A stretch of 43,598 bases of DNA from Chitinophaga pinensis. Lineage in GTDB: Bacteria; Bacteroidota; Bacteroidia; UKL13-3. The translations under genes were made by a program, and so were the position numbers. The notes beneath the pieces are model-generated. The model searched no databases, had not been told where the DNA came from, and was given only the letters and a program-made list of their open reading frames with translations. Position 1 is the first letter of the stretch, and every line of letters begins with the position of its first letter. Location: NCBI GenBank assembly GCA_945898275.1, contig CAMDHZ010000022.1, positions 1-43,598 on the forward strand, in the 5' to 3' direction. Positions 32,041 to 35,907 of this stretch are shown in pieces.

Positions 32041-32457
32041 TTGAAAAAATTTCAGCTAGAAGTAGAAGAAGAGGATGAGTTTTTGCTATTTGGCCTAGTT
32101 TCCGACTTTAAGCCAAGTAAAATTTCTCATTTTTTGGGTCAGGTTTCTTTAGAATTTGAGCGTATTCAAGATTTAATGCTCCCAGATTTTAATCCTAAAG
32201 CCGAGATTAGCTTTTCTAGATTTGCTTGCAGAGATGAGGAAAATCACCTCGATTTTTCATTGGTTGCAAATAGAGAATTTGGTTATTGGCTTTTTAAGGA
32301 GTTAAAACAATTCAACTATTTACTGATTATAAGAGGTGGTTTGGAATTTTTTGATGAGGAAGATTTTATTAAACAATGCAGGTTAGTAAAAGGGTTACAA
32401 TTTATAGCTCGCATTGAAAATGAAAAGTTAAAACAAAAATTAAGTGGAATAGTATAA
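32041..32457 (+). CDS. IPExxxVDY family protein
   Basis: The 138-aa product starts at a TTG. The N-terminus KKFQLEVEEEDEFLLFGLVSD and the length fit the IPExxxVDY family, a Bacteroidota group of unknown function usually found next to pyruvate kinase. The name-giving IPE/VDY stretch is degenerate here (the corresponding region reads YLLIIRGG). It ends 6 bp before pyk, so the two are co-transcribed, and a regulatory or assembly role for pyruvate kinase is possible but unproven. The TTG start is supported by a TTACTTTG box 5 nt upstream, the same spacing seen at several other starts in the window. Confidence 0.75.
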   Translation: MKKFQLEVEEEDEFLLFGLVSDFKPSKISHFLGQVSLEFERIQDLMLPDFNPKAEISFSRFACRDEENHLDFSLVANREFGYWLFKELKQFNYLLIIRGGLEFFDEEDFIKQCRLVKGLQFIARIENEKLKQKLSGIV

Positions 32458-32463
32458 TATATT

Positions 32464-33906
32464 ATGAGAGATCAGAATTTTAACCGAACCAAAATCATTG
32501 CCACCATCGGTCCGGCAACATCAAGTTATGAAAATTTAAAAGCAATAGTGCTTGAAGGCGTAGACGTTTGTCGTCTTAATTTTTCTCATGGCTCCTATGA
32601 AGATCATCAAGTTGTAATTGACAATATAAAAGCACTAAACGAAGAATTAGGCACGCATGTTTGCATGCTCTTGGATTTACAAGGACCAAAATTACGTGTT
32701 GGTGAAATGGAAAATGGCAAAATTCAATTAATTGAAGGAAGCCACATTGAAGTTTCTACAGAAAAATGCATCGGTACCTCCGAAAAAATTTACGTAAATT
32801 TTGCAAATCTCCCAAAAGATGTAAATAAAGGAGAAAGGATTTTATTGGATGATGGAAAATTGGAACTGCGTGTTCTAGAAACCAATCGCAAAAATCTTAT
32901 CAAAGCAGAAGTTGTGGTAGGTGGTTTCTTAACCAATAAAAAGGGATTTAACTTACCTAATACCAAAATGTCTATCCCATCTATGACTCAAAAGGATCTT
33001 GATGATTTAAAATTTGGATTAGAACAAAAGGTAGAATGGGTTGCTTTAAGTTTTGTAAGAAATGCAGATGATGTAATTTTTATCAAAAATATTATTGAAC
33101 TCAACGAATGGAAACCGCGTGTGGTTGCCAAAATTGAAAAGCCAGAAGCAATTACAAATATAGATCAAATCATTCAAGTGGCAGATGGTGTTATGGTTGC
33201 TCGTGGCGACTTAGGAGTAGAAATGCCTATGGAGCAAGTTCCGGTGCTTCAAAAAACCATTGTAAAGAAATGTGTTGAGGCATCCAAGCCAGTAATCATT
33301 GCCACACAAATGATGGAAAGTATGATACTTAGTCCTGTGCCTACCCGTGCAGAAGTTAATGATGTAGCCAACGCAGTTATGGATGGTGCTGATGCAGTTA
33401 TGTTAAGTGCAGAAACCTCTGTAGGAGCTTATCCAATCCAATGTGTACGTGCAATGCAAAAAACCATTGCTCAAGTAGAGCAAAAAACAAATGCCCCTTA
33501 TTTTAAAGGGAAAAGACCTGATGAAAATTCATCTACTTTTTTGTCTGATGAAATTTTGTTCACAGCAGTAAGAATCTCAGACCATTTAAAAGCAGCTGCC
33601 GTAGTGGGTATGACTTTCTCTGGTTACTCTGCTTACCGCTTGGCTGCATACAGACCTAAAGCACCAATTTTTATTTTCACAACTAATCCGCGGTTGCTTA
33701 ACACGCTTAGTTTGGTTTGGGGTGTAAGAGGATTCTTATATAGAGGCTTTGAAAGCACAGATCATTCCATTCAAGAAGTTAATGATAGTTTGCAAAAGTT
33801 GGGATATATTAAACCTGGTGATTTAGTAATTAACACCGCAAGCATGCCAATTACCGATAGGTCTAGAACTAATGCGGTTAAGATTTCTGAAATTAAACAG
33901 CTTTAA
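32464..33906 (+). CDS. pyk: Pyruvate kinase
   Basis: The 480-aa glycolytic enzyme converts phosphoenolpyruvate and ADP to pyruvate and ATP. Signatures run in order: TKIIATIGPATSSYENL, CRLNFSHGSYEDH, the catalytic lysine region VVAKIEKPEAI, MVARGDLGVEM (from residue 244), ATQMMESM and AVMDGADAVMLSAETSVGAYP. The C-terminal regulatory domain is complete. Length is normal. It is preceded by the IPExxxVDY gene and followed 31 bp later by DUF2480, likely in one operon. Confidence 0.98.
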   Translation: MRDQNFNRTKIIATIGPATSSYENLKAIVLEGVDVCRLNFSHGSYEDHQVVIDNIKALNEELGTHVCMLLDLQGPKLRVGEMENGKIQLIEGSHIEVSTEKCIGTSEKIYVNFANLPKDVNKGERILLDDGKLELRVLETNRKNLIKAEVVVGGFLTNKKGFNLPNTKMSIPSMTQKDLDDLKFGLEQKVEWVALSFVRNADDVIFIKNIIELNEWKPRVVAKIEKPEAITNIDQIIQVADGVMVARGDLGVEMPMEQVPVLQKTIVKKCVEASKPVIIATQMMESMILSPVPTRAEVNDVANAVMDGADAVMLSAETSVGAYPIQCVRAMQKTIAQVEQKTNAPYFKGKRPDENSSTFLSDEILFTAVRISDHLKAAAVVGMTFSGYSAYRLAAYRPKAPIFIFTTNPRLLNTLSLVWGVRGFLYRGFESTDHSIQEVNDSLQKLGYIKPGDLVINTASMPITDRSRTNAVKISEIKQL

Positions 33907-33937
33907 TTTTTTCTGAACCAAAAGGAGAATGCTAAGC

Positions 33938-34450
33938 ATGAGTGAAGTAGAATTGATAGAGAATAAGGTTGCAAATAGCGGCCTCATTACCCTTAATTTA
34001 GAGGAGTTGTTTGACCCTACAGAAAGAAATATATTAGATATTGAACCTTGGCTTTTTAGAGGCCTAATCCTAAAAGAAAAGGAATTTAGAGAGCATGTTA
34101 AATTACACAATTGGCAGCAGTACCAAGACAAATTTGTAGTTTTTGAGTGCAGTACCGATGCCATTGTACCTACTTGGGCTTATATGCTTCTTGGGGTTGC
34201 AGTACAGCCTTTTGCCAAGCGTTATTTTTTTGGTTCAGCAGAAAACTTAAATGTTTTATTGTTCCAAGAAGCCATTGAAAAAATAGAGGCAAGTAATTAC
34301 CAAGATGCTCGAGTTATCGTTAAGGGATGCAGCGATATTCCGGTACCTGTAAATGCTTATGTGGCTATTACTGCTAAACTTTTACCAGTTGCCAAAAGTA
34401 TTATGTATGGCGAGGCATGCAGCAATGTGCCAATTTATAAAAAGAAATGA
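33938..34450 (+). CDS. DUF2480 family protein
   Basis: The product is about 170 aa and soluble. Its start (NKVANSGLITLNLEELF) and the repeated structure fit DUF2480, a Bacteroidota family of unknown function. I start at ATG 33938: an AGGAG box lies 10 bp upstream, while the ATG at 33929 is only 1 bp from it. Its 3' end overlaps the TrpF-like gene by 4 bp (ATGA), so the two are translated together. Confidence 0.8.
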   Translation: MSEVELIENKVANSGLITLNLEELFDPTERNILDIEPWLFRGLILKEKEFREHVKLHNWQQYQDKFVVFECSTDAIVPTWAYMLLGVAVQPFAKRYFFGSAENLNVLLFQEAIEKIEASNYQDARVIVKGCSDIPVPVNAYVAITAKLLPVAKSIMYGEACSNVPIYKKK

Positions 34451-35052
34451 AGTTAAAGTTAAGTCCAATTACAAACCTTTCTGACGCGCGTTTTGCAGCA
34501 GCCGCTGGTTTTCATTATATGGGTTTTTGTTTTGACCCAAATGCTGTTGATTTTTTGTTGCCTATTAAAGCGAAGGAGATTTTAGAATGGACAAGCGGTT
34601 CGCATTGTGTAGGAGAATTTGGTGACCAATCGGCGGAGGAAATCCAAGAAATTAGTGAACTTTTAGGCGTAGATGTTATTTTATTAGACAATCATATTTT
34701 ACCAGATGAATTAAGCCATTTCTCTAAGCCAATTATAAAAGTTATCGGTTTGAACCAAATGGATGAAGCGGCTGTCAAAAGAGAAATTGCGGCCTATTCA
34801 CCTTTTTGCGATGCCTTTCAACTCAATGCGCAAGGCATTTCTGTGGCTAACTTACTTTGGGTCAAACCGCTAACAGAAAGCTACAAAATAATATTGAACG
34901 TTGGCAATGATGCAAGCGCTATCAATGAAATTGATTCATTAATTTCTCCGTTTGCCATACACCTTCAAGCTGCTACAGAAGAACAAACAGGCATGCGCGA
35001 CTTTAGTGATTTAAACGCACTTTTAGAAGCAATTGGTGCCACACAAGTTTAG
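34447..35052 (+). CDS. TrpF-like (phosphoribosylanthranilate isomerase) pseudoenzyme
   Basis: The 201-aa beta/alpha-barrel protein aligns with TrpF in its first strands (KLSPITNLSDARFAAAAGFHYMGFCFDPNA, against KICGITNLEDA...GADAVGFVF) and at the end (PFAIHL near PFAVDV). The two residues TrpF needs are missing: the catalytic Cys is Ser6 and the catalytic Asp falls at Asn in FQLNAQ. The glycine-rich phosphate loop GGxGxxFDW is also lost. It therefore probably does not isomerise PRA. No other trp gene is nearby. It overlaps DUF2480 by 4 bp, and its stop lies 28 bp before the CvfB start. Its current role is unknown. Confidence 0.65.
   Translation: MKLKLSPITNLSDARFAAAAGFHYMGFCFDPNAVDFLLPIKAKEILEWTSGSHCVGEFGDQSAEEIQEISELLGVDVILLDNHILPDELSHFSKPIIKVIGLNQMDEAAVKREIAAYSPFCDAFQLNAQGISVANLLWVKPLTESYKIILNVGNDASAINEIDSLISPFAIHLQAATEEQTGMRDFSDLNALLEAIGATQV
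34747..34756 (-). repeat. Dispersed motif GGTTCAAACC
   Basis: Exact copy in the TrpF-like gene, read as GGT-TTG-AAC (Gly-Leu-Asn-Gln). Confidence 0.6.
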
Positions 35053-35079
35053 TTGTATATTTTAGCCTTTCTTTGCAAG

Positions 35080-35907
35080 ATGGATTTATTAGCAGGCGAT
35101 TGTTATTCTTTAAAGGTGGAAGCTATTGAAGCTACCCAATATATTTTAACTGGAAATATTCCAATGGCCATAGATAAATCAACGCCTAAAGCTAGAATTG
35201 GTGAGGTTTTGCAGGTATTTTTATATCATAATGGGCAAGCCGATTTAGTTGCAACCTTGGTTCAACCCAAAGCCAAAGTAGGCGATTTAGTTACCCTAAA
35301 AGTTAAGGAAATTAGCACAGCAGGTGCCTTTTTAGATTGGGGCTTACCTAAGGATTTATTAATCCCTCGCTCTTTTCATGAAGATGATTTGGAAGCAGGC
35401 GAATTATGTTTGGTTAAGGTGTTGCGCGATGCAAGGGATGGAAGAGTTTATGCCAAAGAAAAACTGGAAGGTGAAATTAGCAATGAAGTCTTGACCGTTA
35501 AAGAAAAAGAATCGGTAGAAATGCACGTTTACAAGCAAACAGACATTGGCTACCAAATGATTATCAATGGCAAGCATTTGGGAATTCTCCATAACAACGA
35601 AGTTTTCAAAGAACTATATGCCGGTGATAAGGTTTCTGGCTTTATCAAGAAAATTAAGCCTGATAATAAGATTGATGTAGTGCTAGGAAAACTTGGGCAT
35701 ACTAGAGTAGAGGATGAGGCGCAAGTAATTTTAAATGCTCTACAAGCCAACAAGGGCTTTTTGCCTTATCACGATAAAAGTCCTGCTGAAGAAATTATCC
35801 GTGTATTTGGCATGAGCAAAAGAACTTTTAAAATGACCCTTGGCGGATTGTACAAACAAAAACGTATTGTACTTTCGGAGGAGGGAATTAGATTGCTGGG
35901 TAAATAG
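35080..35907 (+). CDS. S1 RNA-binding protein, CvfB/YitL-like
   Basis: The product is about 275 aa with tandem S1-type OB folds (VGDLVTLKVKEISTAGAFLDWG, about 75-96, is the clearest) and a C-terminal winged helix (VFGMSKRTFKMTLGGLYKQKRI, then LSEEGIRLL). This is the domain plan of CvfB/YitL, RNA-binding proteins that affect virulence and gene expression in Firmicutes; the target RNA here is unknown. The open frame extends upstream to a TTG at 35053, but the ATG at 35080 begins right at the MDLLAGDCYSL start and lies exactly 4 nt after TTTCTTTG. I chose the ATG. Confidence 0.85.
   Translation: MDLLAGDCYSLKVEAIEATQYILTGNIPMAIDKSTPKARIGEVLQVFLYHNGQADLVATLVQPKAKVGDLVTLKVKEISTAGAFLDWGLPKDLLIPRSFHEDDLEAGELCLVKVLRDARDGRVYAKEKLEGEISNEVLTVKEKESVEMHVYKQTDIGYQMIINGKHLGILHNNEVFKELYAGDKVSGFIKKIKPDNKIDVVLGKLGHTRVEDEAQVILNALQANKGFLPYHDKSPAEEIIRVFGMSKRTFKMTLGGLYKQKRIVLSEEGIRLLGK
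35259..35268 (+). repeat. Dispersed motif GGTTCAACCC
   Basis: Exact copy in the CvfB-like gene, read as GTT-CAA-CCC (Val-Gln-Pro). Confidence 0.6.

Follow-up and report, generated by a model that had tools for sequence, protein, structure and literature searches.

A TrpF-like barrel that has lost its isomerase site but is kept by selection in Bacteroidia

In the isomerase TrpF (phosphoribosylanthranilate isomerase, PRAI), Cys7 is a catalytic residue, beside which the enzyme has a conserved Arg36 and phosphate-binding loops. The catalytic Asp of the enzyme is given as Asp126 in one published account (PMC9088769). Non-catalytic descendants of tryptophan enzymes have a precedent in plants, where a TSB-like pseudoenzyme, a paralogue of TrpB, is reported to have an allosteric role through protein-protein contact with its partner, TSA (PMC12727527). 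The protein that we describe here resembles it in being a retained and apparently non-catalytic paralogue of a tryptophan enzyme, but it derives from TrpF rather than TrpB and often occurs where the parent pathway is absent, whereas the plant protein has a known partner (PMC12727527). Among the open-licence papers listed by literature searches, none describes this pseudoenzyme family in its title or in the opening of its abstract. The gene lies in a window of 43,598 nucleotides (the whole stretch of DNA that was analysed), and the original prediction, made from this sequence, was of a TrpF-like barrel retained for a new role, possibly with the product of a neighbouring DUF2480 gene as its partner.

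A TrpF-like fold without the isomerase site

The features of the window that bear on this gene are as follows.

32041..32457, + strand: IPExxxVDY family protein, separated from pyk by 6 bp (NF033205, 61.8 bits)
32464..33906, + strand: pyruvate kinase gene (pyk), upstream in the likely transcription unit (ORF; family recognised from sequence)
33929..34450, + strand: DUF2480 gene, with a 4-bp overlap with the pseudoenzyme gene (PF10652, 242.7 bits)
34447..35052, + strand: putative TrpF-derived pseudoenzyme gene, 201 aa (intact ORF; PF00697, 25.7 bits; model pLDDT 91.6, best PDB matches TrpF)
34462..34464, + strand: Ser6 codon, at the position of catalytic Cys7; not conserved (alignment)
34489..34491, + strand: Arg15 codon; invariant in the pseudoenzyme family and in Rhodothermia-type TrpF (alignment)
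34549..34551, + strand: Asp35 codon, at the position of conserved Arg36 (alignment)
34588..34590, + strand: Trp48 codon; invariant in the pseudoenzyme family and in Rhodothermia-type TrpF (alignment)
34615..34617, + strand: Glu57 codon, at the end of strand 3; gained in the pseudoenzyme family (alignment)
34825..34827, + strand: Asn127 codon, at the position of catalytic Asp126; not conserved (alignment)
35053..35907, + strand: CvfB-like S1/winged-helix protein, an ORF directly after the pseudoenzyme stop (PF17783, PF13509)

The reading frame is full and open, as had been predicted, and the sequence match of its 201-residue product to TrpF is weak but significant. A Pfam scan assigned it to PRAI (PF00697) with 25.7 bits against a cut-off of 22.7, the best of the NCBIfam TrpF models gave 50 bits against an equivalog cut-off of 215, and a sequence search of the PDB returned three matches, all of them TrpF chains. 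An AlphaFold2 model built from 65 aligned sequences forms a confident, complete barrel of eight strands and eight helices (pLDDT 91.6, pTM 0.88), with the (beta-alpha)8 fold of PRAI. When this model was superposed on known structures, a check proposed with the original prediction, the first 11 Foldseek matches were TrpF, including the bifunctional 1pii. A second structural aligner gave Z scores of 22.6-23.4 to the best four (TrpF), whereas the highest-scoring chain that has no TrpF domain reached 16.9. The likeness extends over the whole length of the fold in the enzymes of T. maritima (1nsj; Z 22.8, rmsd 2.2) and T. thermophilus (1v5x; Z 23.4, rmsd 2.1). Unlike TrpF, however, the window protein lacks the catalytic Cys and Asp, the conserved Arg and the phosphate loops.

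These losses were read from an alignment of 160 sequences, comprising a canonical set of 57 TrpFs from loci plus two PDB sequences, and a family set of 101, of which 59 belong to the window's order (the window included) and 42 to the rest of the class; L172-L179, L181 and L187, most of them repeats (L173 is not), were excluded from the class set. In this alignment, Cys7 of T. maritima TrpF corresponds to Ser6, Gly8 to Pro7, Arg36 to Asp35 and Asp126 to Asn127, and the phosphate-loop stretches SGGL and DVSSG are replaced by NVGN and HLQAA. The prediction had foreseen the exchange of Cys for Ser6 and of Asp for Asn, together with a missing phosphate loop; both loops prove to be gone, and the loss of Arg36 comes on top of those listed earlier. 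Cys, Gly, Arg and Asp are each kept in 57/57 canonical TrpFs. In the pseudoenzyme family, Cys is kept in 0/101, Gly in 4/101, Arg in 7/101 and an aligned Asp in 11/101, part of which may be chance because the C-terminal half aligns poorly, and no orthologue with intact Cys and Asp came to light.

The replacing residues are not themselves conserved in orthologues, a point on which the original prediction had asked for a check. Among the 59 sequences of the order, site 6 is S in 37, G in 13, L in 5, N in 3 and Y in 1, and site 127 is Y in 17, N in 14, a gap in 8, F in 7, K in 6, T in 4, Q in 2 and I in 1. Given this variation, Ser6 and Asn127 are unlikely carriers of a new function, the changes look like loss rather than new Ser/Asn chemistry, and a new active site built on these two positions was rejected. 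Three f89 sequences (L193, L194 and L196) retain an LLDG stretch, and since L193 is also the first branch in the tree, the f89 forms may be intermediates.

Distribution, descent and independence from tryptophan synthesis

Orthologues occur in 59/64 genomes of the window's order, in 44/45 of its good genomes and in 14/14 genera, and none of the 59 carriers has an internal stop. The near-complete genome G017 (96%), also from the order, gave no match to the pseudoenzyme, and the gene may therefore be dispensable. Among 158 genomes sampled from the class, 48 have a profile match, which divide into 33 with the pseudoenzyme family, 14 with canonical TrpF and one that is unclear (G482). Sequences were read for 46 of the 48, G550 and G571 being called canonical by their PF00697 E-values. 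G482 is not counted among the carriers of the class sample, which number at least 33. The protein of G482 (L209) is TrpF-like, 175 aa long and without the catalytic Cys; its membership in the family is unclear, and it is possibly a second, independent degenerate TrpF.

We placed the family in a tree of 79 hand-chosen rows, in which the bootstrap had not quite converged and long branches lead to four family rows. All 45 of 45 family rows, which lack the catalytic residues, form one clade (support 100/100), and a separate one (100/100) unites the 14 canonical TrpFs from the class. The nearest neighbours of the family are Rhodothermia-type TrpFs (98/61, not a starred branch), exemplified by L109 and L143, which have in common with it the NLxDAR helix 1 and the W..G motif after helix 2, but which differ in keeping the catalytic residues and in lying in trp operons. 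In both loci the TrpF gene stands between trpC and trpB, and in L109 the Pfam order is GATase, Glycos_transf_3, IGPS, PRAI, PALP, Trp_syntA. Rhodothermia-type bacteria, whose TrpFs still serve in trp operons, would have the nearest catalytic relatives of the window protein.

TrpC (indole-glycerol-phosphate synthase) was found in 0/64 genomes of the window's order, with controls positive in 14/14, and the order therefore seems unable to make tryptophan. The window's own genome, which is 98% complete, gave no match to either TrpA or TrpC, and a search for a second, standard trpF in it, also suggested at the outset, left the window gene as the only PF00697 match. The TrpA profile yielded weak, short C-terminal matches in 33/64 genomes of the order, above the cut-off in G046 and G047; of these 33, four were read (G031, G046, G047 and G062) and three scanned, and as those three matched best as PcrB, they were rejected as TrpA. 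Across the class sample, 11 of the 33 carriers have TrpA together with a second, normal-scoring TrpF (a PF00697 match at E < 1e-15; G135, G139, G493 and G521 were read), the other 22 lack both, and in no carrier does one of the two occur without the other. TrpA occurs in 39/125 non-carriers (association of carriage with trpA, Fisher p 0.84), counting 50 of the 52 genomes above the cut-off, with G506 and G512 excluded for their short C-terminal matches.

The presence of the pseudoenzyme is independent of tryptophan synthesis. Many carrier bacteria lack the pathway, so that another job is probable for the protein, and in the window's order we are dealing with a near-universal gene whose function probably lies outside tryptophan. 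When six family members were scanned with Pfam, three passed the PRAI cut-off, one fell below it and two had no match; where a label is given it is phosphoribosylanthranilate isomerase, and in the window's order this label would imply a pathway step without its neighbours, because TrpC was not found.

Selection, conservation pattern and candidate functions

The pseudoenzyme gene is under purifying selection, with dN/dS at 0.06-0.13 in all nine pairs that gave a finite value, out of ten compared; the remaining pair was saturated. Across the family, the isomerase site is gone, the fold is kept and the sequence is held by selection. The family is a natural series in which a (beta-alpha)8 enzyme loses its active site, and then some of its length, with selection persisting.

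Conservation is unevenly spread around the barrel. In the family across the class, mean identity in barrel units 1-8 is 0.48, 0.35, 0.26, 0.16, 0.11, 0.08, 0.13 and 0.31, strongest in units 1, 2, 3 and 8 and weakest in 4-7; in 41 Rhodothermia-type TrpFs the same units give 0.76, 0.68, 0.65, 0.64, 0.39, 0.50, 0.57 and 0.58, all at or above 0.39. Units 8, 1, 2 and 3 are adjacent in (beta-alpha)8 topology. Leu11, Arg15, Trp48 and Gly51 are invariant in 101/101 family members and 41/41 Rhodothermia-type TrpFs, Ala14 is found in 101/101 and 36/41, and among 16 canonical TrpFs from the class all five are rare. Four further residues are common in the family and scarce or missing in Rhodothermia-type TrpFs: Glu57 (52/59 in the order, 31/42 in the class, 0/41 in Rhodothermia-type TrpFs), Asp30 (55/59, 24/42, 0/41), Lys43 (56/59, 19/42, 4/41) and Glu44 (53/59, 28/42, 4/41).

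In genus g2 the protein is only 154-155 aa long in 5/5 genomes, and in a model of this short form (L131; pLDDT 85.2) only seven strands and five helices are formed. Foldseek aligned it with T. maritima TrpF over 102 columns (rmsd 1.4), from which it seemed TrpF-like in its first half only, but the second aligner matched 138 residues end to end with T. thermophilus TrpF (Z 15.5, rmsd 2.0), which rules that out. The short form is therefore a slimmed TrpF-like fold.

From these sequence patterns, we judge with moderate confidence that the window protein is an old TrpF-derived pseudoenzyme serving as a non-catalytic binding protein. Judging by conservation, it would act as an adaptor or regulator and would contact its partner through the side of the barrel formed by units 8-1-2-3, a single wall that would bear the invariant Leu11, Ala14, Arg15, Trp48 and Gly51 along with the gained Asp30, Lys43, Glu44 and Glu57. 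In TrpF, Asp126 and some of the phosphate site lie in units 4-7; in the pseudoenzyme these units would be free to vary and shrink. Against a binding role stand the facts that no partner was found and that the class has no neighbouring gene in common; in addition, a new ligand or catalytic site would also account for the acidic residues gained where strands 2 and 3 end, and Leu11, Arg15, Trp48 and Gly51, equally invariant in active relatives, may be structural.

The main rival is a new enzyme or small-ligand binder built on the old barrel, with Asp30 and Glu57 as a putative acidic site, perhaps joined by Glu178. Both acidic residues are gains of the family, Asp30 at the C-terminal end of strand 2 and Glu57 at that of strand 3, neither is found in the 41 Rhodothermia-type TrpFs, and both are kept in the 155-aa form (as D33 and E60); yet neither is invariant across the class, Glu178 (37/42) is also present in all canonical TrpFs, and the old phosphate-binding loops are gone, so that we rate this reading as unlikely, if a real contender. 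That the protein is still a phosphoribosylanthranilate isomerase, working through other residues, might be argued from its best fold matches, the first four of which are TrpF at Z 22.6-23.4, but this is barely conceivable given that TrpC is found in none of the 64 genomes of the order, that all 11 sampled TrpA carriers have another normal-scoring TrpF, and that the catalytic and phosphate sites are lost; the window protein is almost certainly not an isomerase. The fast divergence of units 4-7, the shortness of some forms and the missing gene in G017 would suit a decaying relic without function, which the lack of internal stops in 59 carriers, dN/dS near 0.1 and five residues invariant in 101/101 members nevertheless render very improbable. 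A non-catalytic binding protein being the reading that we prefer, the invariant residues shared by the pseudoenzymes and the active-looking Rhodothermia-type TrpFs suggest that the ancestral TrpF may have had two jobs. By this doubtful extension, the second function would be older than the loss of catalysis, and Bacteroidia would then have used another TrpF for catalysis and kept the old one for binding alone, slimming its barrel since.

DUF2480 and the gene neighbourhood

A more specific form of the binding idea, with DUF2480 as a dedicated partner that is translated together with the pseudoenzyme and forms a complex with it, appears improbable. The 4-bp overlap noticed at the outset is borne out by the ORF coordinates in the window and is also seen in L062 and L063, and in a hand tally of listed coordinates (<=800 bp) DUF2480 adjoins the pseudoenzyme in 32/59 carriers of the order. 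These, however, fall in only 5/14 genera (g1 18/18, g3 3/4, g5 1/1, g8 9/9 and g11 1/1, with none in the other nine), and adjacency was seen in 0/27 sampled carriers outside the window's order/family. Nor do the two genes travel together: DUF2480 is present in 141/158 class genomes, namely 32/33 carriers and 109/125 genomes without the pseudoenzyme (Fisher p 0.20, a fragment under the cut-off in G516 being counted as present), G469 carries the pseudoenzyme without any match to DUF2480, and in 3/10 loci read around DUF2480 the gene lies in a SUF-like operon instead. With neither a conserved neighbourhood nor co-occurrence to indicate a DUF2480-dependent complex, the pairing of the two genes seems to have arisen locally and secondarily, and DUF2480 is no more than a neighbour in the operon of some lineages. 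The predicted retention of the barrel for a new role is well supported, by the barrel model, purifying selection, TrpC in 0/64 genomes and Cys in 0/101 members, but the suggested partnership did not hold up.

The SUF-like operons with DUF2480 all belong to group f5 (L243:2408-6537, L244:3920-8574 and L245:2618-6538). Their order is class-V aminotransferase, SufE, FeS_assembly_P, DUF2480 and DUF3078, as named by Pfam in L243 only, with one gene more in L244. These loci offer a lead towards an iron-sulphur role for DUF2480.

In the window, 22 bp separate pyk from the start of DUF2480, and 540 bp separate it from the start of the pseudoenzyme gene. Spacing predicts a single transcription unit for pyk and the pseudoenzyme gene, as originally proposed, and a terminator scan gave no + strand site from one to the other; there is, however, a promoter-like match at 33782-33810, within the end of pyk (17 promoter-like sites were found, against 14.1 expected).

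A shared operon partner across the class was sought in 88 loci, a set that contains some genomes twice, and was not found there, no neighbour being kept class-wide. Within three genes of the pseudoenzyme, these loci have DUF2480 in 30 cases, all from genomes of the window's order, pyk in 29, an alkyltransferase-like gene in 16, a trmB-like gene in 13, an FtsX-type permease in 12, and PDH E1-like and E2-like genes (PDH named from sequence) in 6 and 2. The alkyltransferase-like and trmB-like neighbours are mostly on the other strand, and one or other of them is among the neighbours of the pseudoenzyme outside the window's family. The CvfB-like gene lies directly downstream in only 3/88 loci (L062-L064), which are the window's near kin. 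Upstream of the pseudoenzyme, pyk is found in part of the window's order, and together with pyruvate dehydrogenase (PDH) it hints weakly at a possible link to the pyruvate node. Two f105 genomes have a PDH E2-like gene, identified by its sequence, immediately upstream on the same strand (L237:7725-9107 and L241:7759-8994).
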